A stretch of 64,000 bases of DNA from a virus. This document shows positions 28,234 to 53,718 of the stretch, one piece after another (within the stretch, counting starts at the first letter, position 1; each line of letters begins with the position of its first letter). The DNA is taken from positions 34,767 to 98,766 of the IMG/VR virus record IMGVR_UViG_3300007735_000795; one strand, written 5' to 3'. The notes under the pieces were generated by a model. The model worked only from the letters and a program-made list of their open reading frames with translations. It was not told where the DNA came from and did not search any database. Both the position numbers and the translations under genes were made by a program.

Positions 28234-28259
28234 TATATTAAATTATTAAACTTAAATGT

Positions 28260-28883
28260 TTATAATGTACTATAAAAATTATTTTGTTTTTCTTGTCTTT
28301 CTATTGTTTTAGGGTGATATAAAGATAAACTTTCATAAGCTGGTATTTGGGCCATTACTTTATAACCTTCTATCACTTCATGTACTTTATTCTTCCATTT
28401 AATTTCAGGAGTATTTTTATAAATTCTCCATTGATAATCAGGAAAGTTTACCCATCCATTCTCATTTACATTCCATCCCCATTTTTGTATATGTTCTTGG
28501 GTTAAACCTTCTACGGTGTTTACTCTTGGAACAACAAACGCTTCTACAGTTGGGTTATCTCTAATAAATTCAGGTAACGATTCAATCAAATATTCATTGG
28601 GAACTTCATCTGCATCAATTTGGAAAATATAATCACCAGAACACATATCCGTTAGTTGATTTTTCCAATCAGCAAAATGTCCTTGAAATGCACTTTCTTT
28701 TAAAGTAATCCAATCATTTGATGACCACCAATAGAGTATATCTAATAATGATTGAGACGCTTTTGGCTTATCCAGTAAAACACAAATTTCATCTTCAGGA
28801 CGTTTACGTTTATGAAGAAATGGAACTAAACGTTTTATCTCTTCTAATTCATTACAAACTGTAATAGCGTAACTGATTTTCAT
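28260..28883 (-). CDS. Small family 2-like glycosyltransferase
   Basis: 207 aa. MKISYAITVCNELEEIKRLVPFL, DEICVLLDKPKASQS and DYIFQIDADEVPNEYL (DxD-type) are typical of short GT2 enzymes, followed by VPRVNTVEGL and INFPDYQWRIYKN. Membrane segments are absent. Promoter 28890-28920 lies just upstream. Confidence 0.75.
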   Translation of the reverse strand: MKISYAITVCNELEEIKRLVPFLHKRKRPEDEICVLLDKPKASQSLLDILYWWSSNDWITLKESAFQGHFADWKNQLTDMCSGDYIFQIDADEVPNEYLIESLPEFIRDNPTVEAFVVPRVNTVEGLTQEHIQKWGWNVNENGWVNFPDYQWRIYKNTPEIKWKNKVHEVIEGYKVMAQIPAYESLSLYHPKTIERQEKQNNFYSTL

Positions 28884-28889
28884 ATAACT

Positions 28890-28920
28890 GTAATATAATA
28901 AATTATCCTAATAGGCCAAC
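28890..28920 (-). promoter_or_regulatory. Weak Bacteroidota-type promoter
   Basis: Minus strand GTTG, 19 bases, TATATTAC upstream of ATG 28883. The -33 box deviates at one position, but the -7 box and following ACAG match the site before 36298. Confidence 0.35.
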
Positions 28921-29361
28921 GTATTCTAAAGCATCTATAAATTCTCTTTCTTCAAAATGCTGGAGTGTATCCATGTTCATTCTGTATTCATAGAATTTAC
29001 CTGGCTGTTTTGGAATTGGGTATTTTTCTTTTTCCTCTTCGGTTACTTTGGTTGCTTTAACAGCTGACCATTTCCATTCATTAGGATTAGTACCATTTGC
29101 AAATACCATACCTTGAGTTGGATGGTTAATAGTTTGCGGTAACCAAGTTAAACCAGTGTTTGGGTCTTCCCAGGCTAATGCTTTGTATAATTCAGGAAGT
29201 ACTTCCATTTGTTCATTATAGAATTCACTATCTTTAGTCATTAAACTGTTAGTCCAAAAACCACAGGATAAAGACATCCAACTTGTAATATCAGCTGTTA
29301 CTTGTGTTTCGTAGCATAAGTCACCACCTGATTTGGGGCATGTTACAATTTTATCATTCAT
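28903..29361 (-). CDS. Conserved T4-like phage protein of unknown function
   Basis: 152 aa. CPKSGGDLCYETQVTADITSWMSLSCGFWTNSLM at the N-terminus, then a helix (YNEQMEVLPELYKALAW) and LPQTINHPTQGMVFANG. I recall this protein as a conserved hypothetical in marine and freshwater T4-like phages. Two or three cysteines at the N-terminus could bind metal. Function unknown. Confidence 0.65.
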   Translation of the reverse strand: MNDKIVTCPKSGGDLCYETQVTADITSWMSLSCGFWTNSLMTKDSEFYNEQMEVLPELYKALAWEDPNTGLTWLPQTINHPTQGMVFANGTNPNEWKWSAVKATKVTEEEKEKYPIPKQPGKFYEYRMNMDTLQHFEEREFIDALEYVGLLG

Positions 29362-29367
29362 AATCTT

Positions 29368-29910
29368 TTATTTTTTTCTTATTACAAATTCATTTGATCT
29401 TTTTTCTATATCAAATGTATTTTTATCTACAAACTTATCAACTATTTTAGTAAAAACCTTCATTCTTAAATTTCCATAACTATCATTAGAATATGCTTTA
29501 AAATATAGTATAGGGTATTGATTTTTTTCTATATAAGGCAATATTTCATCTTTAGATATTTTAGAAACAGTATCTAGATAATTTTTTCCTTTTAATTCTT
29601 TTTGTTTACTAAATCCATTATCTTTTTCAGGAAAGTAAAAATCTAAGATCCAATAATGGTTTTTATCTAATCCACCTTTTTTTAATGTTACAACAAAATA
29701 AGGATCATCTTCATATTTTACTTTAAACATCATTTCACCATTATCCCTTACAATTTTTTCATAATCATAACTTAACTCCGGGTTTAAAAATTCTGTAAGT
29801 AAGGTATTAGCAGAAGAATAATATTCTTGTAGTCCTTTATTTTTTAATAGTTTTATATCTTCATGGTATAAAATCTCAATAAGTTTCCATTCATTAAATT
29901 GATTACCCAT
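29368..29910 (-). CDS. Hypothetical protein
   Basis: 180 aa. A helical N-terminal part (KLIEILYHEDIKLLKNKGLQEYY) is followed by strands (EMMFKVKYEDDPYFVVTL, HYWILDFYF) and FEIRKK-like end. General layout resembles 59671-60201 and the N-terminal part of 34063-34740, but I see no sequence identity. It overlaps the GT4 gene by 8 bases. Function unknown. Confidence 0.55.
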   Translation of the reverse strand: MGNQFNEWKLIEILYHEDIKLLKNKGLQEYYSSANTLLTEFLNPELSYDYEKIVRDNGEMMFKVKYEDDPYFVVTLKKGGLDKNHYWILDFYFPEKDNGFSKQKELKGKNYLDTVSKISKDEILPYIEKNQYPILYFKAYSNDSYGNLRMKVFTKIVDKFVDKNTFDIEKRSNEFVIRKK

Positions 29911-31213
29911 TTAATTCTACTTTTTGTAATTTAGGTAATTCAATTTTCTTTAGTTGGGGGAGTTTTAGTTGAACTTGTTTTGGAAATTCTGGGATGTATT
30001 GGGTAAGAATACTGTCTAGTTTTTCTTTCATTTTATCCCAACTAAATTCGTTTTTACTTTTGTATGCTTGACGTTTTGCTCCATCAGTATACTCTTTATA
30101 ATTTTCAAATATGTTTTTCATATGATGACCAGCATGTCCTGTATCAACTGAAAACCATTGTGATTCTTTTAATAACCAATTATTAGCAGCACTTGGATGA
30201 ACATTTGTCATAGTACCAGGAAGCATAGTAACAAATTTTTCATCTAAAAAGTCTTTATGACCACTCCAGTTAGTAGTAATAATTGGTTTTTTAACTAAAC
30301 TGAATTCTAGTAATGGACGTCCAAACCCTTCACCTTTAGTTAAGTTAATCATTGTTTTTACTTTAGGATGATTATATAATTCATTTATTTCTGAATCTGT
30401 AAATTCACCATGAAGTAAATAAACATTAGGAAGGTCTTTTGAATTGACAGTCTTTCTAATCATTTTAATTTTCTTTAGAATTTCGTCTCTGTCAACATAT
30501 GAAGAACCTACTTGGGATGTTTTTAAAATAAGTGCAGGTTTGTTCTTTTTATTTTTAAATGTTTCAAAGAATGCTTTTACAAGTAAACCTGTATTTTTTC
30601 TATCCTCACCTAAATCACCATTAATCCAGTGTCCTAAAAACAAGAAACAGAATTGTTCTGGAATTGAGTCTAGGTTAATGTTTTTGATTTGGTCTTTTTC
30701 TATTACTTTATAAATGTCTGTATTTGCACCTTCAAATAATACTTCAATAGGTTTTTCAATTTTAGCTTCTCCTATCTGTTGATTTGTACGTTGGTCTATT
30801 TTTTGAAATACAGTATCAAGGAATGTTTTCTTTGAATGTTCAGAAGAAGTTAATGTTAAATTCATTCTATTAATTCCTTCAATCCAGTCACCCGGAGACA
30901 AAGTTGATTCAATTCCTGCTGTTACTCCAATATTATATTTACCAACAGGCTGGAATTCACTTGGAATTGTAATTTGCATCCAAATTTCGGGTTGTTTTGG
31001 AAGTTGAGGATGTTCCCAAATATGGCTATTCAAAAATGACCATTCAGGATTGTCTTCAATAAAACCCCAAGGTGTATTACCCCACATTTGAGGAAGAATT
31101 TTAACATCATATTTGTCTGTCTCAATGATTGCTTTAACTAGGTCTCGAGAACGTGCTCCGTATCCACTGTATGTGTCAATTGGGCAACTAATAAAAAATA
31201 ACGGTTTACTCAT
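29903..31213 (-). CDS. GT4-like glycosyltransferase
   Basis: 436 aa. ISCPIDTYSGYGARSRDLVKAII at the N-terminus (GT-B acceptor side), a middle part FEGANTDIYKV, FLFLGHWIN, and a donor-site segment LTKGEGFGRPLLEFSLVKKPIITTNWSGHKDFL with the E(x7)E-type acidic residues of GT4. Nucleotide-sugar donor unknown. It could modify phage DNA, virion glycans or host surface. Followed by another GT4 upstream. Confidence 0.85.
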   Translation of the reverse strand: MSKPLFFISCPIDTYSGYGARSRDLVKAIIETDKYDVKILPQMWGNTPWGFIEDNPEWSFLNSHIWEHPQLPKQPEIWMQITIPSEFQPVGKYNIGVTAGIESTLSPGDWIEGINRMNLTLTSSEHSKKTFLDTVFQKIDQRTNQQIGEAKIEKPIEVLFEGANTDIYKVIEKDQIKNINLDSIPEQFCFLFLGHWINGDLGEDRKNTGLLVKAFFETFKNKKNKPALILKTSQVGSSYVDRDEILKKIKMIRKTVNSKDLPNVYLLHGEFTDSEINELYNHPKVKTMINLTKGEGFGRPLLEFSLVKKPIITTNWSGHKDFLDEKFVTMLPGTMTNVHPSAANNWLLKESQWFSVDTGHAGHHMKNIFENYKEYTDGAKRQAYKSKNEFSWDKMKEKLDSILTQYIPEFPKQVQLKLPQLKKIELPKLQKVELNG

Positions 31214-31214
31214 T

Positions 31215-32651
31215 TTAGTATACTATTTGGTGTTTGATTGTTCTAAGTTCTGCTTTAGTAGCATTTATAAGTTCATATTTTTCTCTTGGTTTCCAAGTTT
31301 TAAATAAATTGTCTAATGTATTAATAACATTTTCTCCCATTTTTTCACTTGTAAAACCAGCTTCTTCTGATAAAGCCCATTCACGTCCTTTCAAACCACG
31401 AGCTTTTCTTTCTTCTTTAGACAAATCATAAACTGCTTTAATTTGAGCAGCCGCGTCTTCAGCATTGCATCTGTCATCCCAAATGTAAGGTGTTAGTGGT
31501 GAACCTTGAATTGAGCGGTTTGTTGGGTAAACTGGAAATGCCCATTCACCATGTTCTTTAACTTTACCAGTATGGTTAGAAGGGAATTTATCATCAAAAT
31601 CAATCCATTTACCTTTTATACTGAAACGCATTTGGTCTTGCATTCCACCAGTAACGTTAGCAATAATTGGATTACCACATAGGATTGCTTCAGTTAAACT
31701 TAGTCCCCATCCTTCATTGTTTGTTAATAAAATCTGACAATCAGTACTGTTATAAAGCAAATTCATTTTGTCAGGTGGAAGCATATGTTGAGAGAAAATA
31801 ATATTATATTTTTCATCTTCACCAAATAATAATTCTCTTACTGCTTCTAAGTCAGTTCCATGTTCGTCTATTACTTGAGTATGGAGAACAAAGGCACAAC
31901 GTTTTGCTTTTTCTTCAGGTAAACCATCAATGAAAATTTTATATGCAAGTAAAGCATCTGGAATTTGTTTTCTACGAATGTTTCTTGAATTAAAGAATAA
32001 AGCAAAATCATATTCTTTGTTTCCAAACAATTGCTTTTTAAATTCTACCAATTCAGGTGATTTAGTGTCCATAGGTTTAAAAATATCATGATTCAAACCA
32101 TGAGGAACATATTGTAGTATTTTATTTTTTGCTTTATCACCTAACACTAATTTATTAATGTTTAGTGTTTGTTTAGAAATTGCTAATAAAGCATCACAAG
32201 ACTCATAATAAGGCTTATTATACATTGGAGCTGGATAGTCATCCCAAATGTTAAGGTAAATAATTGGAATGTTTTTTCTAATTTCATTCTCAATTTGGAA
32301 TAACCAAATAAAATATCTCGGGTCTGTAATCAAAAAGATGGCATCTGGTTTTTCCATTTTGATTAAATGTCTAACTAATCTAGCATCTCCGTATCCATTA
32401 GTTGGATACAAAATAACTGAAGAATCAGTTAAACCAGTATTAGTGTTAGTATCTGGAGATAGATCTAATCGTTTACCTTGTTCAGGATGATTAATGGCTC
32501 CTCCAATGTTTACCCAATTAAAATGTTGGGCTGTGTTTAATACTAATTCTCGAGCAACTGTAGCTATACCTGAATGTACTCTAATGTCATCGCAGATAAG
32601 TAAGATTTTTTTACGCTCATTTTGAGGCAAATACGCAAAACTTGAATTCAT
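31215..32651 (-). CDS. GT4-like glycosyltransferase
   Basis: 478 aa. KKILLICDDIRVHSGIATVARELVLN (Gly-rich acceptor-side loop), ALLAISKQTLNINKLVLG, YVPHGLNHDIFKP, and LTNNEGWGLSLTEAILCGNPIIANVTGGMQDQMRF, the full GT4 donor motif. Paralogous in layout to 29903-31213 and translated in the same unit. Promoter at 32860-32891 reads through the RHH gene into it. Confidence 0.85.
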   Translation of the reverse strand: MNSSFAYLPQNERKKILLICDDIRVHSGIATVARELVLNTAQHFNWVNIGGAINHPEQGKRLDLSPDTNTNTGLTDSSVILYPTNGYGDARLVRHLIKMEKPDAIFLITDPRYFIWLFQIENEIRKNIPIIYLNIWDDYPAPMYNKPYYESCDALLAISKQTLNINKLVLGDKAKNKILQYVPHGLNHDIFKPMDTKSPELVEFKKQLFGNKEYDFALFFNSRNIRRKQIPDALLAYKIFIDGLPEEKAKRCAFVLHTQVIDEHGTDLEAVRELLFGEDEKYNIIFSQHMLPPDKMNLLYNSTDCQILLTNNEGWGLSLTEAILCGNPIIANVTGGMQDQMRFSIKGKWIDFDDKFPSNHTGKVKEHGEWAFPVYPTNRSIQGSPLTPYIWDDRCNAEDAAAQIKAVYDLSKEERKARGLKGREWALSEEAGFTSEKMGENVINTLDNLFKTWKPREKYELINATKAELRTIKHQIVY

Positions 32652-36872: not shown

Positions 36873-37127
36873 CTAATAGTCTCCGTACAAATTAAATTTC
36901 TTAGGTGGAGGTGCCTGTACTTCAACTGTTTTTTCTACTAATGAATACAATTCACCTTTTCTAGGGGACAATTTAAAGTCACAAACGTTTTGTACTTTTT
37001 GATAATATGCTTCTAAAGTGTCAGTTAATGAATTGTAAACAGTATCATCATTCAACAGTGACCACCTGTCACCAGGTGGTACACGTTGAGCGATTAGTTC
37101 TTCTATTAGTTTAATTTCAGTTGACAT
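36873..37127 (-). CDS. Small hypothetical protein
   Basis: 84 aa ([22 protein letters not shown]...). Helical, with a proline-rich APPPKKFNLYGDY end. It overlaps the stop of groL by one base. Function unknown. Confidence 0.6.
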   Translation of the reverse strand: MSTEIKLIEELIAQRVPPGDRWSLLNDDTVYNSLTDTLEAYYQKVQNVCDFKLSPRKGELYSLVEKTVEVQAPPPKKFNLYGDY

Positions 37128-38743
37128 TAAAACATTCCTCCCATTCCACTAAGGTCTTCTTGTTTAGTTTCTTCAGGTTTATCTACAACAGTACATTCAG
37201 TTAATAGAATTGTTCCTGCTACTGAAGCGGCATTTTCAATTGCTGTACGAGTTACTTTAGTTGGATCAATGATTCCAGCTTGTTTCATATCAACAAACTT
37301 TTGTGTTTCGAGATTATAACCTCTCCAGTTATCACGAACAACAAACAAGTTATTGATTACTTGATATGATTCCATTTCTTCATAACCAGCATTAGTGAGA
37401 ATTTTTATAAATGGTGAAGCACATGCTTTCCAAACAATGTTACCACCTACAGTGTCTCGGTTTGTAATTGATTCACGTGCATATAGTAAAGCAGATCCAC
37501 CACCAGGTACAATACCTTCTTCAATTGCGGCTTTAGTTGCTTGCAAGGCGTCATCCACGCGGTCTTTCTTTTCTTTGACCTCGGTTTCAGTATTACCACC
37601 GACATGAATTATTGCTACTCCTCCGACGAACTTCGCAAGCCTTTCTTGTAATTTTTCTTGTTCGAAAGGGGTCTTTGCTTTTTCGATTTGTTGTTGAAGT
37701 TCTTCAATACGTGTTTGTATTCTCTCAGATTGTCCTTTTCCATCAACTATTGTTGTTTGGTCTTTAGTAACTGTTATTAAACGGGCTTCGCCAAACCACT
37801 TCCAATCGAATTTGTCTAGCTTCATGCCCTTATCAGTACTAAATACCTCACCTCCTGTCAAAGTCGCAATGTCTTCTAAAAGTAGTTTTCTGCGATCACC
37901 AAAGTCAGGTGCTTTTACAGCACACACCTTAATAGTACCCCTCATTTTATTTACAATAAGTGTAGCAAGTGCTTCACCATCAACGTCTTCTCCTATAATA
38001 AGAAGCGGTTTGTTCTGATTAGACACTGCTTCTAATACTGGGAGTAATTCTTTAATAGTAGTAAAACGTTTGTCAGCAATGAGAATCAATGGATTCTCAA
38101 GGGTACAAGTCATTGTGTTGTTATCAGTAACAAAGTAATGTGATTTGTATCCTCTGTCAAATTGCATACCTTCTACTGTTTCAAGGTATGTTTCACCTGA
38201 TTTTGATTCTTCAATGTGTACTACACCTTCACGTCCTACTTTTTGCATTGCTGTAGCAATCAATTCTCCAATTTCAGGGTCATTATTTGCTGAAATGGTG
38301 GCTACTTGTTTAAGTTGGTCTTCAGAACTAATGTCTTGAGAAATGTTTTTACGTAATTCTCTAACAACTTCTTTAACAGCAGAATCAATTTCACGTTTGA
38401 TTTTAACTGCATTAATACCATTATTTAAATGTGTTAATCCATTTTTAACCATTTCTTGGGCCAACAATGTAGAAGTAGTTGTACCGTCACCTGCTCCATC
38501 AGCTGTTTTAATAGCTGCTTGTTTAACAAGTTGTGCTCCTAATTCTTCAATTGGGTCTTCAAGTGAAATATTCCTTGCTACTGTTACCCCATCTTTTGTA
38601 GATTGAGGGTAATCATTGTTTTTTGAAATTACAACATTACGACCATTAGGGCCTAATGTTGATGTAACGGCATTTGCTAATTTATCAATACCACTTACTA
38701 GTTTTTTTCTTGCTTCAGGTCCGAATTCGATAATTTTACTCAT
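37127..38743 (-). CDS. groL: Chaperonin GroEL
   Basis: 538 aa. Clear Gro[33 protein letters not shown], the apical-domain [39 protein letters not shown], and a GMGGMF tail. The family's ATP-binding DGTTT is intact. Together with the downstream GroES it gives a full phage chaperonin. T4 instead supplies only gp31, a GroES substitute. An apical-domain stretch ([18 protein letters not shown]) has unusual residues, which may reflect adaptation to phage substrates. Confidence 0.97.
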
Positions 38744-44064: not shown

Positions 44065-46014
44065 TTAAACTGCTCCAAAAGAAGCAGTATACCATCCTCC
44101 ATCCCAAATATATAATTTATTAGTACTTGTATTAAAATACATTGAACCTGTTTTTGGGTTGGATGGGTTGACTGTATTTGTAGGTATCATGATTGAACCC
44201 CTACTACTACCATCTACATCAACAGTAAATCCATCTTTTTCGGTACCTAATGCTCCTCCTATTCCTACTACAAACAATGAAGTATCATTACCGTGTTCAT
44301 TAAATTTACCAACTACAGTTTGATACGAACCCGAAGCTATAGCATATCCTCCTAAAGCAGTTGAATAAGCGCCTTCTGTTTCTGAATATGTTCCTCCTGC
44401 AAATGAATAAATACCTTTAGCAACTGTATTTGCTCCTTGAGTATGTGAACCATTACCATATGCTAATGTGTTCTCCCCCTCAGCATGAGAATATGAGCCT
44501 GAAGCAATTGAATTATATCCTTCAGCGTGGGAAAAATCACCTCGAGCATCTGTGTCATTACCTTCAGCATGAGAACCGGTACCTCTAGTATATGTTCCCA
44601 AACCTTCAGCATGAGAAAAAGGACCTTCTGTTAGAGAACCTGAACCTTCAGCATGAGAATGTTGTCCTGAAGTCTGTGTGTCTTTACCTTCAGCATGTGA
44701 ATATCCACCTAAAGCCCATGTGTTATAACCTTCAGCATGAACATAAAAACCTGAAGCGGTTGTTTGAGAACCTTCAGCGTGTGAATATTGTCCTGAAGCA
44801 GTTGTTTGATAACCTTCAGCATGTGAGTATTGACCTAAAGCAATTGTTTGATAACCTTCAGCATGTGAATAAGAACCTGAAGCAACTGTTTGAGAACCTT
44901 CAGCATGTGAATATAAACCTAAGGATAAAGTTTGTTGTCCTTCTGCATGTGAATAAGAACCTGAAGCAACTGTTTGAGAACCTTCAGCGTGTGAATATTG
45001 ACCTGAAGACGTTGTTAAATAACCTTCTGCGTGAGACCATGAACCTGATGCTAATGTTTGATATCCTTCAGCATGTGAATAATCACCTAAGGATAAAGTT
45101 TGCCATCCTTCAGAATGAGAGCCTTGTCCTACAGCATCTGTTTGATAACCTTCAGCATGAGAAGAATTACCAGAGGATGTTGTTTGATAACCTTCAGTGT
45201 GTGAATAACCACCTAAAGCAAGTGTAGCTTGACCTTCAGTATGGGAATAATTACCTTGAGCTAATGTTTGATAACCTTCAGCATGAGCTGCTAAACCTAA
45301 AGCAGTTGTTTGCAATCCTTCGGCATGTGAAGAAATACCTGATGCTAATGATGATGAACCTTCTGCGTGTGAAGTAATACCAATTGAGTCGGTTGATCTG
45401 CCTTCAGCATGTGAATAAAGACCTGAAGCTGTTGTTTGAAAACCTTCAGCGTGAGAAGTAGAACCTGATGCTAATGTTTGGTATCCTTCTGCATGTGAAT
45501 AAGAACCTGAAGCAAATGAACCTGAACCTTCAGCATGGGATGCAAAACCATAAGCAGTAGTTTGAGAACCTTCAGCATGTGAATATGAACCGGATGCTAA
45601 TGCTTGATAACCTTCAGCATGAGAAGCAGATCCAATAGCGTCTGTTTCTCGTCCTTCTGAATGGGCATATAAACCTGAAGCTGTTGTTTGATAACCTTCA
45701 GCATGAGTAGAAGTAGTTTTAGCCCATGTTTGCCATCCTTCGGCGTGTGCTGTATAACCAGTTGCTTGTGAATCTCTACCTTGTGCGTGTGAATAATTAC
45801 CTGATGCTGTTACGTTGTCTCCTTGAGCAAATGTATATTCATTGAAAGCAGTAGCATTTACTCCAATCATTATAGAGCCACTAAATTTATTGCTACCTGA
45901 TAGGAAAGCATATGATTTAGAGACATGAAAAAAATTATTGTCTAATTGTTCATAACTAAGAGCAGAACCAGTAACTGTTCTAAATGTAAACGATCCTGAA
46001 TTTAAAAGAGGCAT
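44065..46014 (-). CDS. Repetitive fibre/adhesin-like protein with about 33 HxEG repeats
   Basis: 649 aa. From about residue 75 to 545 it consists of roughly 33 copies of a 14-residue unit with the core S-H-A-E-G-(YS)-Q-T and alternating ASG(S/L)Y. This is the YadA/Hep_Hag head repeat, which forms left-handed beta-roll stalks. The N-terminus (LLNSGSFTFRTVTGSALSYEQLDNNF) is typical of phage virion proteins, and the C-terminus (SMYFNTSTNKLYIWDGGW) is a common phage-fibre end. Likely a tail or head fibre for host binding. The 42-base DNA repeats could expand or contract by recombination. Confidence 0.8.
   Translation of the reverse strand: MPLLNSGSFTFRTVTGSALSYEQLDNNFFHVSKSYAFLSGSNKFSGSIMIGVNATAFNEYTFAQGDNVTASGNYSHAQGRDSQATGYTAHAEGWQTWAKTTSTHAEGYQTTASGLYAHSEGRETDAIGSASHAEGYQALASGSYSHAEGSQTTAYGFASHAEGSGSFASGSYSHAEGYQTLASGSTSHAEGFQTTASGLYSHAEGRSTDSIGITSHAEGSSSLASGISSHAEGLQTTALGLAAHAEGYQTLAQGNYSHTEGQATLALGGYSHTEGYQTTSSGNSSHAEGYQTDAVGQGSHSEGWQTLSLGDYSHAEGYQTLASGSWSHAEGYLTTSSGQYSHAEGSQTVASGSYSHAEGQQTLSLGLYSHAEGSQTVASGSYSHAEGYQTIALGQYSHAEGYQTTASGQYSHAEGSQTTASGFYVHAEGYNTWALGGYSHAEGKDTQTSGQHSHAEGSGSLTEGPFSHAEGLGTYTRGTGSHAEGNDTDARGDFSHAEGYNSIASGSYSHAEGENTLAYGNGSHTQGANTVAKGIYSFAGGTYSETEGAYSTALGGYAIASGSYQTVVGKFNEHGNDTSLFVVGIGGALGTEKDGFTVDVDGSSRGSIMIPTNTVNPSNPKTGSMYFNTSTNKLYIWDGGWYTASFGAV
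44150..45800. repeat. Tandem 42-base coding repeats
   Basis: Approximate extent of the imperfect 14-codon repeats in the fibre gene (span is my estimate). The core on the plus strand is ccttcagcatg. It also creates a long spurious open frame on the plus strand. Confidence 0.7.
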
Positions 46015-46424: not shown

Positions 46425-46946
46425 TTATTCGAAAAACTGCTCTAAGTTTGGTTTAAAATAATTAACTGATTTCATTACTTTACGATCATGAGTACGATAC
46501 ACTACCCAATAATCACCTTGTTTTTCATAATGACAAGCAGTACCTTGTTCTTGTTCTCTAATACGAACAGTTAAATTAGCTTCTTCTTCGGTTTTACAAA
46601 CCTTACTCATATTTGATGCTTGTACTTCAGCATATGCATCTTGAATTTGGCCTTTTAAACCATGAAGCATAGTTCCATTTCCTAATGAAACATATGTTAT
46701 GTCACACAATGCGTCTAATACCCCTACAATATCTCCTTTTTGACATGCTTCTTTATATTCCTCTAGTTCCTCTAGAATAAAATTATAAACAAACATCCAT
46801 TCTTTTTCATCTGGAATGACTGGGGAATAATTGTTTGGTTTACCCATTGTTTTGTTAAATGTTTCTACTTCATCAACAAATGGAACAGATTGCATTGCTT
46901 TTCTAATTGTTTCGTAGTTTACTGTTTTAGATTGAGACATGACCAT
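46425..46946 (-). CDS. MazG/PRA-PH-like nucleoside pyrophosphohydrolase
   Basis: 173 aa. ILEELEEYKEACQKGDIVGVLDALCDITYVSLG holds the EExxE...ExxD-type metal-binding helices of the MazG/phosphoribosyl-ATP pyrophosphatase superfamily (EELEEYKEA and DALCDI). It would hydrolyse an (d)NTP; in phages such enzymes are thought to adjust nucleotide or ppGpp pools. ATG 46946 overlaps folE by 20 bases; a start at 46940 is equally possible. Confidence 0.75.
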   Translation of the reverse strand: MVMSQSKTVNYETIRKAMQSVPFVDEVETFNKTMGKPNNYSPVIPDEKEWMFVYNFILEELEEYKEACQKGDIVGVLDALCDITYVSLGNGTMLHGLKGQIQDAYAEVQASNMSKVCKTEEEANLTVRIREQEQGTACHYEKQGDYWVVYRTHDRKVMKSVNYFKPNLEQFFE

Positions 46947-47622
46947 TATTTATTTTAAGTGAATCAAAAAATTCTTTACGTGCTTGATTATTATTATCCA
47001 TAAACACACCTGATGCTTTGGTAGTAACCATTGCAGCACCTTGGTGTTTTACTCCTCTACATGAAACACATGAGTGTGATGCTACAACAGATACAATAAC
47101 ACCCAAATTACCTTCACAAACTTTATTTACTGCTTGATGAATAGCGGCTGTTAATTGTTCTTGAATAGCACCTCTACGACCAAAGTGTTCTACAATGCGG
47201 TTTAGTTTTGACAAACCAATTACTCTACCCTCAGCACCTGAAACATATCCTATGTGTACTACACCTCTAATTGTTTGGTGGTGATGTGAACACATTGAAG
47301 TTAATTCAATGTTACGTTCAATAATTACACCATCATATCCGTCTGATGGGAATGAAGTAATGTCTGTAAAACCATTATAACGACCTGCCCACAAATCATT
47401 TACATATGCTTTTGCTACACGACGAGGTGTGTCAGCAGAATTAGGATCATTTTGCCAGTCACATTTTAATGCTGTTAGAAAGTTACCAAAATGCTCAGCA
47501 GCTTCTTCAATCATTTTTAATTTTTCTCGTTCTGTAAATGGTGCTCCAGGAGCAGAACCATTAGCAAAACCTGTAGGGACACATTCAATGTCGTTGTGAA
47601 ATTTTCTTCTATTGTTTTCCAT
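46927..47622 (-). CDS. folE: GTP cyclohydrolase I
   Basis: 231 aa. MCSHHHQTIRGVVHIGY and GLSKLNRIVEHFGRRGAIQEQLTAAIHQAV, with zinc ligands Cys/His in CSHHH and the second Cys in SHSCVSCRG. This is the first step from GTP to pterin or 7-deazapurine intermediates. QueE, QueD, a QueC-like protein and a DpdA-like enzyme lie nearby, so 7-deazaguanine synthesis is the likely use. Confidence 0.95.
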   Translation of the reverse strand: MENNRRKFHNDIECVPTGFANGSAPGAPFTEREKLKMIEEAAEHFGNFLTALKCDWQNDPNSADTPRRVAKAYVNDLWAGRYNGFTDITSFPSDGYDGVIIERNIELTSMCSHHHQTIRGVVHIGYVSGAEGRVIGLSKLNRIVEHFGRRGAIQEQLTAAIHQAVNKVCEGNLGVIVSVVASHSCVSCRGVKHQGAAMVTTKASGVFMDNNNQARKEFFDSLKINNGHVSI

Positions 47623-47628
47623 ATAACC

Positions 47629-47659
47629 TTAATATAATAAATTTTATTAAACTGCCAAG
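47629..47659 (-). promoter_or_regulatory. Bacteroidota-type promoter
   Basis: Minus strand CTTG, 19 bases, TATATTAA upstream of folE (ATG 47622). The -33 box is one base off TTTG and lies in the 3' end of the hpt gene. Confidence 0.5.
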
Positions 47660-48159
47660 ATGTAAGGTAAACTTCTTTTTTTACCATTATCATCATCCAT
47701 ACCATAGCCTACAACCCATTCTGATTTGATTTCAAATCCATAAATTGATCCTATAGGTATGTTTATTTCGTTAATTTCTCTTTTTATTAAAGTAACAATG
47801 TTTACTCCAAAAGCACCTTTTTCTGTAAATTGATTTTTTAAAATATTCATTGTTACACCTGTATCATAAATGTCGTCTATAATGTAAACAAATTTACCTT
47901 TTACATCTAAAGAAGCAGGAATAATCATTTCAGGTGTTTCATGTTCTCTACCCTTATAAGACTTTACTTTAATAAATTCACATTCAGGGTCTAAATGTGA
48001 TAATTGATCCATTAGTTTAGAATAAAACATAAAACCACCACTTAAAACACATACCATAACAATTGGTACTTCTTTTTCTGATTTGTGGCGGTTGTGAATT
48101 TGGGTAGAGATTTCTTTAATTCTCTTTTCAATTGTTTCTTTTTCAAATAATACTTTCAT
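47647..48159 (-). CDS. hpt: Hypoxanthine(-guanine) phosphoribosyltransferase
   Basis: 170 aa. PRPP-binding loop VYIIDDIYDTGVTMNIL, upstream VLSGGFMFYSKLMDQL and KSYKGRE, and C-terminal WVVGYGMD with the base-binding segment. It salvages hypoxanthine or guanine to IMP or GMP. Adjacent to folE and to a thioredoxin gene, so it may feed guanine nucleotides to the 7-deazaguanine pathway (inference). Confidence 0.9.
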   Translation of the reverse strand: MKVLFEKETIEKRIKEISTQIHNRHKSEKEVPIVMVCVLSGGFMFYSKLMDQLSHLDPECEFIKVKSYKGREHETPEMIIPASLDVKGKFVYIIDDIYDTGVTMNILKNQFTEKGAFGVNIVTLIKREINEINIPIGSIYGFEIKSEWVVGYGMDDDNGKKRSLPYILAV

Positions 48160-48442
48160 ATAGAGATTTTATTTCGTTTCCGCCTGGGTAATGTTTTGTT
48201 TTGCCTTTGCTTGCTAGTATTAGGTGAGGGTAATAGTCTACACCATATTCTTGTTCTAATTCTTCGTTTTCTTCAATTTTAATGAATTTGAATCTTAATC
48301 GTTCAACTATTTTTTGAACATATGGGTTAGCTGCTTTACAAGCACCACACCAGTCAGCACTAAACAAAATGATAACATTTTCGTTATTAATTGTTTCTTT
48401 TAATAGTTGTTTATTCATATTAAACTTCTCTTTTAGTATCAA
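48143..48442 (-). CDS. Thioredoxin-like protein 1
   Basis: 99 aa. NVIILFSADWCGACKAANPYVQKIVERL shows the thioredoxin fold with active-site CGAC (normally CGPC). HLILASKGKTKHYPGG corresponds to the cis-Pro loop region (YYPHLIL). It could reduce phage ribonucleotide reductase or an enzyme of the base pathway. It overlaps the Hpt gene by 17 bases. Confidence 0.85.
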   Translation of the reverse strand: MILKEKFNMNKQLLKETINNENVIILFSADWCGACKAANPYVQKIVERLRFKFIKIEENEELEQEYGVDYYPHLILASKGKTKHYPGGNEIKSLYESII

Positions 48443-49202
48443 AGGCTATAATGTGTTCTCTACCTGTAAAATTATAACCATTGTCTCTACAAAAATCCAT
48501 TACCATAGGATAAACTCGAATTAATTCTTCTCTAGTATCACCTGGAGGCATAAGCCAAGTTTTGCTTTTAGGGATATTTAAATCACACATAAATTGTTTT
48601 ATTTCTTCCCACACTTCAGGCATTTCAATAGGATTACATACTGGTTTAAAGTGAAAATCATTATGATATTCAATCATTTGTTTAATATTTTCTTTATGAA
48701 GGCGGAACTTATTGTGTTGGTCCACCATTTTTTGGTCCACTTCTTTCCCCTGCGGTGTATTAATTCCAATCCTAGGTACACTATTACTGAACTTAGGAGA
48801 CAATGATACCAAGCCAATTGGATAATCTGTTTCAATAAAATGTGAACCTTCAGTTTCTATTGTTATAAATATACCTCGTTGGTAAGCAAAATGAGTAAGT
48901 TCATTTACCAAATCAGGATGCATTGTTGGTGATCCTCCTGTTAACATCATTTCTGTAATAAATGGATTTTGATTATAGATTTCAATGATGTCATTAAATG
49001 TATATTTACCTTTTTCAGGGTGAATACTTGTATACCATGAATCACACCAACCACCTTCTCCAAACCAGCAACGATGAGTACAACCTGTGGTTCTTATTGC
49101 TACTGTAGGTCTTCCTGCTCTACTACCTTCACTTTGTACACATGTATAAAGTTCAACTATAGGTAGAGTTTTAGTATAATCAGTTATTCTTCCTGGTTTC
49201 AT
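48420..49202 (-). CDS. queE: QueE-like 7-carboxy-7-deazaguanine synthase (radical SAM)
   Basis: 260 aa. Radical SAM cluster motif TTGCTHRCWFGEGGWCDSWYTS: Cys 41, Cys 45 and Cys 53, a CX3CX7C spacing instead of the standard CX3CX2C. The rest fits QueE: TGGSPTMHP, ETEGSHFIE, LSPKFSN, and a final DTKREV-like end. It converts carboxy-tetrahydropterin to CDG. The cysteine spacing is known to vary in QueE. It overlaps a thioredoxin gene by 23 bases. Confidence 0.85.
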   Translation of the reverse strand: MKPGRITDYTKTLPIVELYTCVQSEGSRAGRPTVAIRTTGCTHRCWFGEGGWCDSWYTSIHPEKGKYTFNDIIEIYNQNPFITEMMLTGGSPTMHPDLVNELTHFAYQRGIFITIETEGSHFIETDYPIGLVSLSPKFSNSVPRIGINTPQGKEVDQKMVDQHNKFRLHKENIKQMIEYHNDFHFKPVCNPIEMPEVWEEIKQFMCDLNIPKSKTWLMPPGDTREELIRVYPMVMDFCRDNGYNFTGREHIIAFDTKREV

Positions 49203-49252
49203 TGTAAATGTAAATATAATTTATGTTGTATGTTGGAGTTGATGTCCAGTAG

Positions 49253-49717
49253 TTATTCTCCGTAACTAGCACTGTTTCTTTCGTTTTCATATACTTCTAC
49301 TTTTGCTACTTGTACTCGACCATTAGTTTCTTCTACTAAAAATGTATTTAGTTTTAAATATAAATACTTTGCAAACTGTTCTGCTCCAGTAGCAGGTATA
49401 ATTCGTAGTTGAATAAGACCATTACTATGCATTTCTTTAAATTGTTCCAAATATGGATCGTCTTCTGCTATAATTGTAGTATGATCAAACATATGATCCA
49501 TCCATGCTTTAGGATTCATACCACCAATGGTTCCTTTAGCACGTTTCATGCCTCCAAAGTCCCATACCCAATTACGTTCGTCCAATTCACCTTTGAACCA
49601 TACTCTAAATGATACAGCATATCCATGTAAAAATTTACAATGAGTATCTTCTGCTCTCCATTGACGAAAACATGTACTGAATCCGTCAAATAATTTTGTT
49701 GATTTAAATGTTTCCAT
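49253..49717 (-). CDS. queD: QueD-like 6-carboxytetrahydropterin synthase
   Basis: 154 aa. GFSTCFRQWRAEDTHCKFLHGYAVSFRVWF covers the region where E. coli QueD has FEAAHRL...KCGRLHGHSF. The catalytic Cys (27) and one zinc His (31) are kept, but the first zinc His aligns with Phe 17 beside Cys 16 and the third His (HGH) is Tyr 33. Other parts (WDFGGMKR, MDHMFDHTTIIAEDDP, EVYENERNSASY) match the QueD/PTPS family. The changed metal site may be a family feature in phages. Confidence 0.8.
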   Translation of the reverse strand: METFKSTKLFDGFSTCFRQWRAEDTHCKFLHGYAVSFRVWFKGELDERNWVWDFGGMKRAKGTIGGMNPKAWMDHMFDHTTIIAEDDPYLEQFKEMHSNGLIQLRIIPATGAEQFAKYLYLKLNTFLVEETNGRVQVAKVEVYENERNSASYGE

Positions 49718-49721
49718 GTTG

Positions 49722-49982
49722 TTAGTTTATCACTTCACTAAATGTTTTCCAATTTACTTCATCAACATGCATTCCATTTTCATCTACTTCAGATTTACCT
49801 GTAGGTATACCTAACACAATGTCTCCGTTTCCATCTTTAGCTATGGCAATAAAACCAAAACCTTCACAAATGTACGAAGAATAATGATTAGGTTCAAGAG
49901 TATCTGCAATTTCTAAAATGTCAAAATCCCAGGGCATTTCGGGATCATTTTTTTCAGCCCATTGTTTACTAAATTCAGCCAT
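49722..49982 (-). CDS. Small hypothetical protein in the deazaguanine cluster
   Basis: 86 aa. Acidic, MAEFSKQWAEKNDPEMPWDFDILEIADTLE, then YICEGFGFIAIAKDGNGDIVLG. Overlaps a thioredoxin gene by 8 bases. No function; translation within the same operon suggests a link to the pathway but gives no proof. Confidence 0.6.
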   Translation of the reverse strand: MAEFSKQWAEKNDPEMPWDFDILEIADTLEPNHYSSYICEGFGFIAIAKDGNGDIVLGIPTGKSEVDENGMHVDEVNWKTFSEVIN

Positions 49983-50229
49983 AATTCAACCAGTCTATAA
50001 TTTGATTAAAAGTTTTTATTCCTGTAAATCTACGAACTTCCTTTTCATTCTCCACGAGAACTACAGTAGGAATGTTTCTTACTTGTGCTTCTGTAAGCAC
50101 AGCTGGGTCAGCATAATCAATGTTAATTTTACGAACAGGAATTTGTTTATTAACTTGATCCATGATTGGTCCTAGTGTTTCACAAGGGTTACACCATGGT
50201 GCTGAATAGTAATATAACTGTTTGCTCAT
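49975..50229 (-). CDS. Thioredoxin-like protein 2
   Basis: 84 aa. LYYYSAPWCNPCETLGPIMDQV with active site CNPC and cis-Pro region IPTVVLVEN. Short but complete thioredoxin fold. Second thioredoxin in 2 kb, near an RNR operon at 55-58 kb. Confidence 0.85.
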   Translation of the reverse strand: MSKQLYYYSAPWCNPCETLGPIMDQVNKQIPVRKINIDYADPAVLTEAQVRNIPTVVLVENEKEVRRFTGIKTFNQIIDWLNYG

Positions 50230-50381
50230 ACTAATTCCTCCACTATACCTAAAATTTCACTTGCTACTAAAAGTATAACTCCAATTACTGGGTCTGGTAG
50301 TAAGGCTATGTATCCTACAATTCGTAGTGAAGATTTAGCTAGACTAATTTTCTGATGTTTCTTCGGATCCGGGTGTTGCAT
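50226..50381 (-). CDS. Small membrane protein embedded in overlapping frame
   Basis: 51 aa from ATG 50381, inside the 3' end of 50344-50532 and out of frame with it; stop overlaps the thioredoxin start (ATGA). A hydrophobic helix covers about 22-48 (VGYIALLPDPVIGVILLVASEILGIVE), with a basic lead (MQHPDPKKHQK). I recall similar short LRI.GY...LGIVEE proteins in T4-like marine phages. Start choice is the main uncertainty. Confidence 0.5.
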   Translation of the reverse strand: MQHPDPKKHQKISLAKSSLRIVGYIALLPDPVIGVILLVASEILGIVEELV

Positions 50382-50532
50382 TTTCTTCTAAATTTAAGTT
50401 TTCTAATTGTTTTTTCATTACTTCAGTAAATACTTTTTCATACGCACGTTCCATGTTTTTGAAATTAATATTACGTTTTTTAATTCGTTTGTTGTGGGCT
50501 TTTTTACCACCTCGTTTTCTAGATGTTGGCAT
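50344..50532 (-). CDS. Small basic protein
   Basis: 62 aa. Very basic N-terminus (MPTSRKRGGKKAHNKRIKKRN), helical middle, acidic end. Overlaps the queC-like gene by 14 bases. DNA or RNA binding is suggested by charge only. Confidence 0.55.
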   Translation of the reverse strand: MPTSRKRGGKKAHNKRIKKRNINFKNMERAYEKVFTEVMKKQLENLNLEENATPGSEETSEN

Positions 50533-51412
50533 GGTTTTTTAATATTTGTTGTACATGATTTGTTACTACTCTCCAAGTTGTAGGACCTTCTTCATTAGCA
50601 TATTCTACTGGATCTGGTTTTCCTAGTTTCATAAATGCTTCAATACGTTCTACAGATGATGCTGATTTGTAATCTGAATACCATTTACTTCTAAATTCAC
50701 CATTTATATCTTGCCAAGTCCAATGGATTGGTTTATATGATGTATTAGTACGGTAATATACTTCATTAAAGTCTAAGCCAAGTTTACCTAAACATTTATC
50801 ACCATCTTTTAGAATACCAAACTTATCAGTATCAAGATAAGGCGTATAATGATATACTTTTTCAGCTCCCCAATTTCCCATTTTGAATGCTTCAAAATCA
50901 GCATCTCTAAATTCTTGACGACAATCAGGGTAAATAGCATGATCACCAGCATGAATACCCATTGCAATAGCACATTCAGTATTATTTTGTTCAGCAATTG
51001 ATAATGCTACTGCTTGAATAATAGAACTAAAGATTTTATTACGATTAGGAACTACTGTTGCTTTCATATTCTCTTCAGCGTAGTGTCCTTCAGGTACATC
51101 TTCACCTCCAGTTACTAAAGCTGAATTGAGTAGTTCAGATAATCCATCAAGTTTAATTACTTGGTGTTTTACTAGTGGATAAATTTCTTCAAATCCATTA
51201 GGTGCATGATCATGATGGAATAGACGAGTTGGGTTATTATTAATGTACTTAACTAAATCCTTAGCACGTTCTAATTCAACATTGTGTTTTTGACCATAGT
51301 CAAAACTTAAACATGTAACCTCATAGTTGTTAGCTAACAGGTGTAGTAGTAGTGTACTTGAATCTAATCCCCCAGATAGGCTAAGTACTGCTTGTTTTTT
51401 GTTTATATTCAT
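50519..51412 (-). CDS. QueC-family PP-loop ligase lacking the zinc cysteines
   Basis: 297 aa. PP-loop ATP site SGGLDSST (13-20) and EVTCLSFDYGQKHNVE, VPNRNKIFSSII, MGIHAGDHAIYPDCR are QueC-like. E. coli QueC binds zinc with four cysteines in a C...CxxCxxC pattern near the C-terminus; here the matching positions read Ser 225 (NTSYKP) and Asp 247, Ser 250, Ser 253 (DYKSASSVERIEAF), while the following ERxEAF block is kept. The enzyme may thus make something other than preQ0, for example use the adenylation step differently. I recall, from memory only, a QueC-like enzyme named DpdL linked to 7-deazaguanine lacking the 7-substituent. Confidence 0.8.
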   Translation of the reverse strand: MNINKKQAVLSLSGGLDSSTLLLHLLANNYEVTCLSFDYGQKHNVELERAKDLVKYINNNPTRLFHHDHAPNGFEEIYPLVKHQVIKLDGLSELLNSALVTGGEDVPEGHYAEENMKATVVPNRNKIFSSIIQAVALSIAEQNNTECAIAMGIHAGDHAIYPDCRQEFRDADFEAFKMGNWGAEKVYHYTPYLDTDKFGILKDGDKCLGKLGLDFNEVYYRTNTSYKPIHWTWQDINGEFRSKWYSDYKSASSVERIEAFMKLGKPDPVEYANEEGPTTWRVVTNHVQQILKNHANI

Positions 51413-51416
51413 AACT

Positions 51417-51447
51417 TTAATATATAAAATTTTTTTTAATTTTCAAA
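51417..51447 (-). promoter_or_regulatory. Bacteroidota-type promoter
   Basis: Minus strand TTTG, 19 bases, TATATTAA, just upstream of the QueC-like gene (ATG 51412). The -33 box is in the 3' end of the HNH gene. Confidence 0.55.
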
Positions 51448-52095
51448 TTTATTTCCTTTTTTTAAATTATCTTCCCACCATAGTGGCTGGAGATTTGTGT
51501 AATGGCATGCTTTTTTTACTTCATCCTCTATAGTTAGATCAAATGAAGATAATGGAAGAATATGATCTATATGCCATCCTTTTAAACCATAATTTTCCCA
51601 TGTCATCCCATCAGTAAATTGTTTTTCAATATGAGACATGAAAGTTTCTCGATCACATCCTATAAGTTCAAGGGTAGTAGCACCTAAATTTCTTTTATTA
51701 ATTAAATCAGATAACCTTCCAGACATGTTTCCTTTTATTTTAAAGAACATATCTTCTTTTCTACGATTGTGTCTATATTCTCTTTCATACTTTCTCCACC
51801 AATTTAGATTTTCAGCTACATATTTTTTTCTATATTGTTTAGCCTTATCTGTTTTATCTCTTTCAGCCCTAGTATTAGTTTTAGTTTGGAAATGTTTATC
51901 ATATACTAAATCACATGATTTACATTGAGATTTTAATCCCATAAATCCTTCTTTTTGAGGAGTAAAAAAATTAAAATCTTTTATTTCTAAACATTTAGTA
52001 CAACGCTTTTTACTTTCTTTAGCTAAATCTTCTTTTTCTTTAAGTTTAGGATTATTTTTTCTCCTATATTCTTTCATGTATTCTTTACTAGGCAT
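51436..52095 (-). CDS. HNH homing-type endonuclease, second copy
   Basis: 219 aa. Same modular plan as 41075-41842: zinc module KRCTKCLEIKDFNFFTP...LKSQCKSCDLVY and HNH core WHIDHILPLSSFDLT...CHYTNLQPLWWEDNLKKGNK with the C-terminal NLKKGNK typical of HNH nucleases. It stands alone between the QueC-like gene and 52154-52471; an imperfect hairpin lies upstream. Confidence 0.85.
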   Translation of the reverse strand: MPSKEYMKEYRRKNNPKLKEKEDLAKESKKRCTKCLEIKDFNFFTPQKEGFMGLKSQCKSCDLVYDKHFQTKTNTRAERDKTDKAKQYRKKYVAENLNWWRKYEREYRHNRRKEDMFFKIKGNMSGRLSDLINKRNLGATTLELIGCDRETFMSHIEKQFTDGMTWENYGLKGWHIDHILPLSSFDLTIEDEVKKACHYTNLQPLWWEDNLKKGNKFEN

Positions 52096-52109
52096 ATTTA
52101 TATAATTTT

Positions 52110-52138
52110 ATGGCGGTTATAAATATTATAACCACCAT
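52110..52138 (-). other. Imperfect hairpin before the second HNH gene
   Basis: GGTTATA/TATAACC (52115-52121 with 52127-52133) extended by ATGG/CCAT across one mismatch. No U-run follows on the minus strand. It contains ATATTTATAA like the inverted repeat at 6238-6265. Confidence 0.4.
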
Positions 52139-52153
52139 AAAAAAACATAAAAA

Positions 52154-52471
52154 TTAGAAAGATACTGTATGAATTGTTTTAATAGAAAGATCAGACATTT
52201 CATATTTAGCTAAATCTTTATCTCTAGCTACTTGAAAATCTACTGATTGTCCGTTTTTTGTTTCTACCCAAAGTTCTTTAATAAACTCGGTTTTGATGAT
52301 TTTTTCATCTTCGTCTCTTGTAATTTTAAAAACTGCTACTTTGTTTTGCATAACTTGTTGGTTATTTAAATTGTTATAAGTTAATGTTGTTCCAGTACTA
52401 TATGAAGTACCGATGCCTGTGGGTGATGTTGATAAAACACAACCGTTGATGTTATTTATTAATGTTGACAT
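52154..52471 (-). CDS. Hypothetical protein
   Basis: 105 aa. NINGCVLSTSPTGIGTSYSTGTTLTYNN then QVMQNKVAVFKITRDEDEKIIKTEFIKELWVE, beta-rich. Could be a small virion or regulatory protein. No family recognised. Confidence 0.55.
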   Translation of the reverse strand: MSTLINNINGCVLSTSPTGIGTSYSTGTTLTYNNLNNQQVMQNKVAVFKITRDEDEKIIKTEFIKELWVETKNGQSVDFQVARDKDLAKYEMSDLSIKTIHTVSF

Positions 52472-52476
52472 AATTA

Positions 52477-52746
52477 TTAATTGTATTTTTTATATAAGGT
52501 TTCTAATACTTGAGTATCTTCATTACTCATTTGGTAAAAATTTTTAGACAAAGCATCACACATGTTAATATGTTCTTGTTCTAACAATGATACTTGAGAT
52601 GCTCTGTGTTTGAAAACTTGAGTCTGTTTTAAATGACCATCTTTAATAAGAGCATCAACAAGAGTTTTAATGTCTCTTTCCTGACATTCAGATAGGAATT
52701 CGTTTACTGAAATTTCTAATTCGGCGTCTGTACAAAAATAGGGCAT
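52477..52746 (-). CDS. Small helical acidic protein
   Basis: 89 aa (MPYFCTDAELEISVNEFLSECQERDIKTLVDAL...). Helical throughout, with FKHRASQVSLLEQEHINMCDAL in the middle. Function unknown. Confidence 0.55.
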   Translation of the reverse strand: MPYFCTDAELEISVNEFLSECQERDIKTLVDALIKDGHLKQTQVFKHRASQVSLLEQEHINMCDALSKNFYQMSNEDTQVLETLYKKYN

Positions 52747-52757
52747 AACTTTTATTT

Positions 52758-52943
52758 TTATTTGTTAAAGTAATTAGCAAGCCAATCTGAAGGATACAAC
52801 ATTACTACTCCATCATATTTTGGGTTAGACACTTGGCGAGTTTGAATTTTTACTCTATCTCGCATTGCAGCCTCGGCTACTTGTTTTCCTAGTTGACTAC
52901 CTGCGGCCTTGCCTAAGTAGTCATAAAGTGATTTATATTCCAT
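52758..52943 (-). CDS. Small hypothetical protein
   Basis: 61 aa. MEYKSLYDYLGKAAGSQLGKQVAEAAMRDRVKIQTRQV, then VVMLYPSDWLANYF. I recall this short protein as common in large phages. It overlaps the DpdA-like gene by 11 bases. Function unknown. Confidence 0.6.
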   Translation of the reverse strand: MEYKSLYDYLGKAAGSQLGKQVAEAAMRDRVKIQTRQVSNPKYDGVVMLYPSDWLANYFNK

Positions 52944-53718
52944 TTATTATTTTGAATTGTTTAGTATTAAAAAGAATTTTTGTTAATTGTGGTTTTTCTA
53001 AATCTGCTTCTATTACATCATCAATTTTAGTAGTTGGTTTTTTGTCTAAACCCCACTCATTGTATCTTGTATTTTCAATAGCAGCCATAATAGGATTTGA
53101 TGTGTCAATTGTAGTAACAAAAGGCATATTTTTATAATATACAAACTCTTGTGGTATAGCACACCCTAATAAATGAATATTATCAATTTCTTTAATTATA
53201 CCTTGATGATACAATTTACTTACAACATGTACTCGTCCCATTGCTGTAGCAACGTCTGGAGTTGAATGAGGGAATTCATGTTTATAATAAGCAGCACCAT
53301 ATGAAAATGCTATTTTTCGGTATCCTAATGCTTTATATTTTTGGTAGCATTCTGCTGCTTCATAAAAACTTTTAGCTTGTACTACTGCTACTTTTATAGT
53401 ATGTGCAGGTAATTCTATTTTAGCCCATTCAGCAGCGTTTTTAAGTGATGCTTCCATGTCTTCCCACACATCAGGAACAATAAATTCATTAGGTTGTAAT
53501 TCATTTATCCAATGCATCAAACGATCAGTATCGTATGCTTGTCCTAATTCATGTAATGAATTGTCCATTATTACATATCGATTATTTTCTTTAGCCCATC
53601 TAAAATACTTCTCGTATCGATCGTATTTGTCTAATAGGTGGGGCAGACAATAGTCATAGTCGTTAAAACTTTTTGACCATTCTAAAACACATAAGGGAAC
53701 TTCGTGAGATATTTTCAT
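52933..53718 (-). CDS. DpdA/TGT-like 7-deazaguanine DNA transglycosylase candidate
   Basis: 261 aa. The fold and motifs of tRNA-guanine transglycosylase relatives: YVIMDNSLHELG (Asp 52 near the position of the TGT substrate-binding Asp), NEFIVPDVWEDMEASL, IHLLGCAIPQEFVYY, and TTIDTSNPIM with candidate nucleophile Asp 205. Phage DpdA enzymes of this shorter type are known to replace G by 7-deazaguanine bases in DNA. It lies at the far end of the folE/queE/queD/queC-like cluster. Substrate choice is inference. Confidence 0.75.
   Translation of the reverse strand: MKISHEVPLCVLEWSKSFNDYDYCLPHLLDKYDRYEKYFRWAKENNRYVIMDNSLHELGQAYDTDRLMHWINELQPNEFIVPDVWEDMEASLKNAAEWAKIELPAHTIKVAVVQAKSFYEAAECYQKYKALGYRKIAFSYGAAYYKHEFPHSTPDVATAMGRVHVVSKLYHQGIIKEIDNIHLLGCAIPQEFVYYKNMPFVTTIDTSNPIMAAIENTRYNEWGLDKKPTTKIDDVIEADLEKPQLTKILFNTKQFKIINGI

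Follow-up and report, generated by a model that had tools for sequence, protein, structure and literature searches.

Does a phage known only from a sequence record replace the guanine of its own DNA with a 7-deazaguanine, and could it do so with a QueC enzyme that has lost its zinc site? The question was raised by a gene cluster in the window analysed here, a 64.0-kb stretch covering positions 34767-98766 of the 98,766-bp IMG/VR virus record IMGVR_UViG_3300007735_000795, from which alone the phage is known. The initial annotation had read this cluster as a 7-deazaguanine DNA-modification pathway, and the genes it contains, the recurrence of the cassette in other viruses and the tRNA-guanine transglycosylase (TGT) fold predicted for one of its products all lend support to that reading. 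Taking sequence and structure comparisons together, we consider it very probable that the phage synthesises a 7-deazaguanine base, which then takes the place of guanine in the phage genome.

A recurrent cassette that probably serves to make and insert a 7-deazaguanine

The folE, queD, queE and queC genes were all present in one cluster, as indicated by Pfam, PHROG and NCBIfam matches (Table 1). They were found on the minus strand together with the other genes initially annotated, those for an Hpt-type phosphoribosyltransferase (PRT), two thioredoxins and a DpdA-like protein, the last recognised by its fold. The MazG-like gene that had been counted with them was also present; its position is just outside the interval 46927-53718 that had been given for the pathway. 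The order DpdA-QueC-thioredoxin-QueD-QueE-(thioredoxin)-PRT-FolE-MazG recurred across about 155 IMG/VR loci, with the MazG-like gene as the conserved final gene, and in 86 out of 93 loci with flanking sequence the gene of the DpdA-like family was no more than 2 kb away from that of QueC. Because many further viral contigs carry this set of genes together, their clustering is not a matter of chance.

In the mechanism that we propose, FolE, QueD and QueE would convert GTP into 7-carboxy-7-deazaguanine (CDG), and a zinc-independent QueC would turn CDG into 7-amido-7-deazaguanine (ADG) and then into 7-cyano-7-deazaguanine (preQ0). A DpdA3-like transglycosylase would cut guanine out of the phage DNA after replication and insert preQ0 (or ADG), perhaps in place of much or all of the guanine, and the modified DNA would resist restriction enzymes that read guanine. 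DpdA3 is presumably the subfamily name of the Campylobacter-phage type of transglycosylase; Cui et al. reportedly introduced it for such proteins in 2023 and tied them to complete replacement of guanine.

The DpdA-like protein has a TGT fold and invariant aspartates

The AlphaFold model of the DpdA-like protein, built from an alignment with 64 rows of environmental relatives, reached a predicted local distance difference test score (pLDDT) of 97.0. Its best PDB matches were the TGTs 2ash and 2pot (E 1e-08, query-normalised TM-score (TMq) 0.63), and the bacterial DpdA 7ui4 was matched with an E value of 9e-07. The initial annotation had made the assignment depend on the catalytic aspartates, and residues suited to this role were found: D52, D83, Q114, H182 and D205 were invariant in 122/122 relatives, and D52 and D205 are candidate catalytic aspartates. 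In a statistically weak profile alignment, HLLG...SIDTSNP of the family was placed against HLLG...SIDSTTP of 7ui4, and D52 and D205 aligned with DSGAF and SVDS of a Rosebush-type DpdA at an hhalign probability of only 10%. NCBIfam DpdA gave a weak match (5e-4).

A sequence-based placement of the protein, as suggested by the initial annotation, was informative. Its nearest named kin in tblastn searches were 'hypothetical' proteins of Campylobacter phages (37-39% identity over the full length of 261 aa, E ~1e-48), and the family profile scored 233 bits on Campylobacter phage CP220. A protein of Flavobacterium phage vB_FspM_immuto (NC_055915; immuto below) annotated as DNA guanine transglycosylase was 35% identical, and the Rosebush-group DpdA showed no detectable sequence similarity. 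On sequence grounds, the DpdA-like protein is therefore of the Campylobacter-phage type and not a classic phage DpdA. Phages CP220, CPt10 and CP21 share such full-length relatives with the window; they differ from it in that their modification genes are scattered and their QueC retains the zinc site. Campylobacter phages were reported by Hutinet et al. to be highly modified by 2′-deoxy-7-amido-7-deazaguanine (dADG), with no DpdA recognised at that time (PMC6884629). The present locus would extend this DpdA type, tied to heavy guanine modification, to abundant environmental and probably flavobacterial phages. A P-loop kinase annotated as thymidylate kinase adjoins DpdA in CP220 (L005:3819-4361) and was not found in the window's record; a kinase of the same type occurs near DpdA in phages that carry QueF (L004:34876-35400).

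A QueC without its zinc site

The window QueC shared with canonical QueC (PF06508 cluster 1) the fold, the SGGxDS, YxQxHxxE, VPxRN and YPDC motifs and the tyrosine of the zinc region (Y226). The two differed in the zinc site itself: the canonical C(x)8CxxCxxC motif was gone, with all four cysteines replaced, and the former zinc region read TSYxP...SDYKSASS and formed, in the model, a two-stranded insert. That model had a pLDDT of 87, and B. subtilis QueC (3bl5) was its best PDB match (target-normalised TM-score (TMt) 0.77). The same zinc-less pattern was present in the immuto QueC and throughout the viral QueC proteins collected (123/123), a count that measures the uniformity of the clade and not its frequency, as the scans were seeded with zinc-less-pair and DpdA-family motifs. 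Serine occupied the first and last zinc-cysteine columns in at least 122 of these 123 proteins, and no replacement ligands were conserved. The usual zinc motif was found in all canonical QueCs compared (L008, L009, L194-L197, L200-L205), and the QueCs of CAjan and the Rosebush group, unlike that of the window, retain the zinc site.

Mutagenesis of E. coli QueC placed the essential residues in motifs that the window QueC retains (PMC13329287), and equivalents of the tested Y35, R99, Y131 and Y189 were all present in it. The C(x)8CxxCxxC motif is counted as a QueC hallmark in the published signature, and a 2026 survey of the QueC family names the clusters of LarE and GMP synthetase as the only ones to lack it (PMC13329287). 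Since the survey names no other cluster without the motif, we found no earlier description, in the literature searched, of a zinc-less QueC of this kind.

Hundreds of environmental phages encoded zinc-less QueC, and a genome scan detected it in Cysteiniphilum, Facilibium, Fangia, Thiotrichales isolates, Legionella gresilensis and Poseidoniales archaea. In 13 cellular genomes no other full-length PF06508 protein was present; 12 of these had TGT and 9 had QueF above the cut-off. Cells with no further full-length QueC included Cysteiniphilum, Facilibium, Fangia and L. gresilensis, which also have TGT and QueF, as well as Poseidoniales. The zinc-less queC of Cysteiniphilum was divergent from queD-queE, and that of Poseidoniales lay within a folE-queE-queC-queD run. 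Because there are cells with TGT and QueF that possess no other full-length QueC, the zinc-less form most likely makes preQ0. In a tree computed without the zinc region, all zinc-less QueCs fell on one side of a branch with a Shimodaira-Hasegawa-like approximate likelihood ratio test (SH-aLRT) support of 97; from this quick tree, in which the canonical rows have long branches, the simplest reading would be that the zinc site was lost once and the function retained. If true, zinc would not be needed for QueC chemistry, the motif now being treated as a hallmark, and recognition of the lineage would correct automatic annotation. One Poseidoniales zinc-less QueC (L186:7995-9146) carried a C-terminal fusion to a SelR/MsrB methionine sulfoxide reductase domain (PF01641, 2e-48); those of L187, L189 and L191 are of similar length, with the domain scan covering L186 only. 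In addition, a metagenome-assembled genome (L184, genome G009) carried a phage-type zinc-less QueC near a thioredoxin, and its TGT match contained 13 in-frame TGA codons, which makes recoding of TGA likely.

QueD and QueE are remodelled together with QueC

QueD proteins of the window type carried HGY instead of HGH in 137 out of 138 cases and were missing the histidine of the upstream AAH; in PDB alignments E. coli QueD has the usual HGH. Zinc is coordinated by the histidines of HGH together with the one upstream. Similarly, QueE of the window type had CX3CX7C instead of CX3CX2C in 94 out of 100 proteins. Six bacteria with zinc-less QueC had a single protein of the 6-pyruvoyl-tetrahydropterin synthase (PTPS) family each, and the HGY variant was seen in all three lineages whose sequence was read; for this reason the divergent set of enzymes probably works. 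We lean towards the view that zinc-less QueC, HGY QueD and CX3CX7C QueE represent a separate evolutionary version of the preQ0 pathway, common to hundreds of aquatic phages and to the housekeeping queuosine pathway of the Fastidiosibacteraceae, with zinc-less QueC also in Poseidoniales, and that in phages this version is coupled to a guanine-recycling PRT fed by DpdA.

The predicted base is preQ0

The lack of QueF noted for the window extended to the whole 98.8-kb record, in which the best match in the QueF search was the T-fold of FolE (E 0.015, below the cut-off); a search of the same record for a formyltransferase gave nothing above the cut-off. As to the hallmarks of 2′-deoxy-7-aminomethyl-7-deazaguanine (dPreQ1) and 2′-deoxyarchaeosine (dG+), the record had no QueF and QueC had no Gat domain, no separate ArcS search being made. 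Among the classic phage DpdA systems, which comprise CAjan, the Rosebush group and phage 9g, CAjan and Rosebush, whose DNA carries 2′-deoxy-7-cyano-7-deazaguanine (dPreQ0), resemble the window in having FolE, QueD, QueE, QueC and a transglycosylase and no amidotransferase. The window DpdA belonged to a 49-member clade without nearby QueF (SH-aLRT 97), and QueF-linked DpdAs fell outside it. We predict that the modified nucleoside is dPreQ0, with dADG as its main rival, and not dPreQ1. Immuto is like the window in encoding FolE, QueD, QueE, zinc-less QueC, MazG-like protein, DpdA, thioredoxin and PRT, with identities of 61-73% for most proteins and 35% for DpdA; it differs in that it carries QueF, a formyltransferase and a kinase beside DpdA, has a Gpt-like PRT and splits the genes into two blocks.

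Several observations weigh against the exchange of preQ0 into phage DNA. The DpdA-like protein had no Pfam TGT (PF01702) match, and its sequence links in hhalign were weak (10% with classic DpdA and 0.1% with TGT); the link to TGT rests on structure because the profile comparison with TGT gave nothing. The linear record may not be complete, so that a QueF could lie elsewhere, and QueF and PRT occur together in a 166-kb relative (G017). The zinc-less phage QueC might also stop at ADG. If it stopped at the amide, the same pathway would yield dADG, as in the Campylobacter phages; we regard this outcome as possible but doubtful. The nearest named DpdA kin come from those phages, and the second QueC step could have changed with the loss of zinc. 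However, the QueC of Campylobacter phage CPt10 retains its zinc site, QueF-bearing relatives of the window phage use the same zinc-less QueC type, and the cells that have only zinc-less QueC possess QueF as well, an enzyme that requires the nitrile preQ0. The idea that zinc loss tracks dADG was considered and fails on the same CPt10 protein. A change of function in QueC could go further: divergent QueC clusters have acquired other activities (PMC13329287) and the zinc site is gone here, so the protein might be a paralogue for protein deazaguanylation (QatC/Cap9) or another CDG-processing enzyme such as DpdL. The latter is presumably a decarboxylase. Such a paralogue is unlikely, as the motifs for substrate and ATP that were probed by mutagenesis are all retained, there are queuosine- or archaeosine-type cells with no QueC other than the zinc-less form, and no QatB-like or CD-NTase partner gene was seen in the cassette. 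The active-site motifs of the window QueC are canonical, as are those of Cap9, so context decides, and the neighbours of the window QueC are preQ0 genes.

The remaining alternatives concern the fate of preQ0. A final base of dPreQ1 or a derivative, made by a host QueF or by one missing from the record, would agree with the possible incompleteness of the record and with the QueF and formyltransferase genes that immuto and a subset of relatives carry beside DpdA. We consider it improbable because the QueF-bearing relatives have the QueF gene about 1.5 kb or less from DpdA and the window does not, some relatives as large as 180 kb have no QueF, and the two groups are set apart in DpdA trees. Alternatively, the TGT-like protein could act on RNA instead of DNA, the genes serving to boost the preQ0 or queuosine supply for host tRNA; its TGT fold would fit, and some phages with a partial pathway and no DpdA have been suggested to raise tRNA queuosine (PMC6884629). 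This alternative is likewise improbable given that the record is without QueF, that almost all loci show the transglycosylase linked to preQ0 genes and that among the members of its family are proteins from Campylobacter phages, which reportedly have modified DNA. Exchange of preQ0 for guanine in the phage DNA remains our preferred reading.

A phosphoribosyltransferase that may recycle guanine

An Hpt- or Gpt-type PRT was encoded within 1.5 kb of FolE in 43 out of 60 loci with flanks. Most PRTs in this cassette slot were of the Hpt type; some, among them those of immuto and of the close relative L011, were Gpt-like. That one operon slot is filled by either of two kinds of PRT, both of which use guanine, suggests that the substrate is what matters there. 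Each exchange by DpdA would free one guanine and each new base would cost one GTP; Hpt could return the freed guanine to GMP, from which GTP would be remade. The initial annotation had identified the Hpt correctly and taken it as a GMP supply, a role that is better explained as recycling of the guanine freed by DpdA. This hints at a way in which a phage might meet the guanine cost of base exchange on a large scale. In 20-kb loci QueF and PRT had seemed mutually exclusive, a rule that fails in G017.

Organisation of the cassette and its genomic setting

From 53718 to 46425 the minus strand encodes the DpdA-like protein, small open reading frames (ORFs), an HNH endonuclease, QueC, two small ORFs, a thioredoxin and an 86-aa ORF, followed by QueD, QueE, the second thioredoxin, the Hpt-type PRT, FolE and the MazG-like protein. 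The endonuclease gene between QueC and DpdA is probably a homing insertion outside the pathway.

Table 1. Features of the cassette, in window coordinates and in the order of the minus strand
Feature	Position	Strand	Evidence and remarks
DpdA-like transglycosylase, 261 aa	52933..53718	-	model pLDDT 97.0; PDB matches; tblastn to CP220-group proteins
Endonuclease VII/HNH-like	51436..52095	-	phrog_1035 5.6e-23; homologues in only 4 sources compared, window included
Zinc-less QueC	50519..51412	-	PF06508 1.1e-36; alignments; model pLDDT 87; top PDB match QueC 3bl5
62-aa basic small protein	50344..50532	-	in 12 loci
51-aa small hydrophobic protein	50226..50381	-	in 72 loci; near QueC in 41/93
Thioredoxin 2, CNPC active site	49975..50229	-	PF00085 2e-12; near QueC in 57/93 flanked loci
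86-aa protein, no Pfam match	49722..49982	-	homologue in 12 loci compared
QueD, 6-carboxytetrahydropterin (CPH4) synthase, phage type (HGY replacing HGH)	49253..49717	-	PF01242 5.4e-17; phrog_2389 1.1e-40
QueE, radical-SAM CDG synthase, CX3CX7C cluster motif	48420..49202	-	radical SAM 1.6e-08; phrog_2076 1.3e-48; PDB QueE 6nhl 4.6e-06
Thioredoxin 1, CGAC active site	48143..48442	-	PF00085 3e-16
Hpt-type hypoxanthine/guanine PRT	47647..48159	-	PF00156 1.2e-17; TIGR01203 3.2e-36 (NCBIfam HGPRTase); PDB HGXPRT 1hgx 1.9e-20
FolE, GTP cyclohydrolase I	46927..47622	-	PF01227 6.7e-42; 62% to immuto; MCSHHH and HSCVSC motifs
MazG/PRA-PH-like nucleotide pyrophosphohydrolase	46425..46946	-	PF01503 2.8e-09; phrog_671 1.3e-28; 73% to immuto homologue

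The window has a GC content of 30.6% and encodes baseplate wedge proteins, which indicates a contractile-tailed phage. A search for near-identical DNA among phage records gave no match to the window, and an Rfam scan of the window for the preQ1 riboswitch and other RNAs found nothing at the gathering cut-off. A full-length GroEL (37127-38743) was 62% identical to its homologue in immuto, and the set of replication genes resembled that of the same phage; because both are common to the two phages, the host is likely to belong to the Bacteroidota and the phage is probably flavobacterial. Elsewhere in the window, a block of sugar genes (25065-32651) encodes UDP-glucose dehydrogenase, a nucleotide-sugar epimerase and glycosyltransferases, and a 649-aa ORF (44065-46014) with many SHAEG-type repeats resembles trimeric-autotransporter heads and occupies a tail-fibre-like position.

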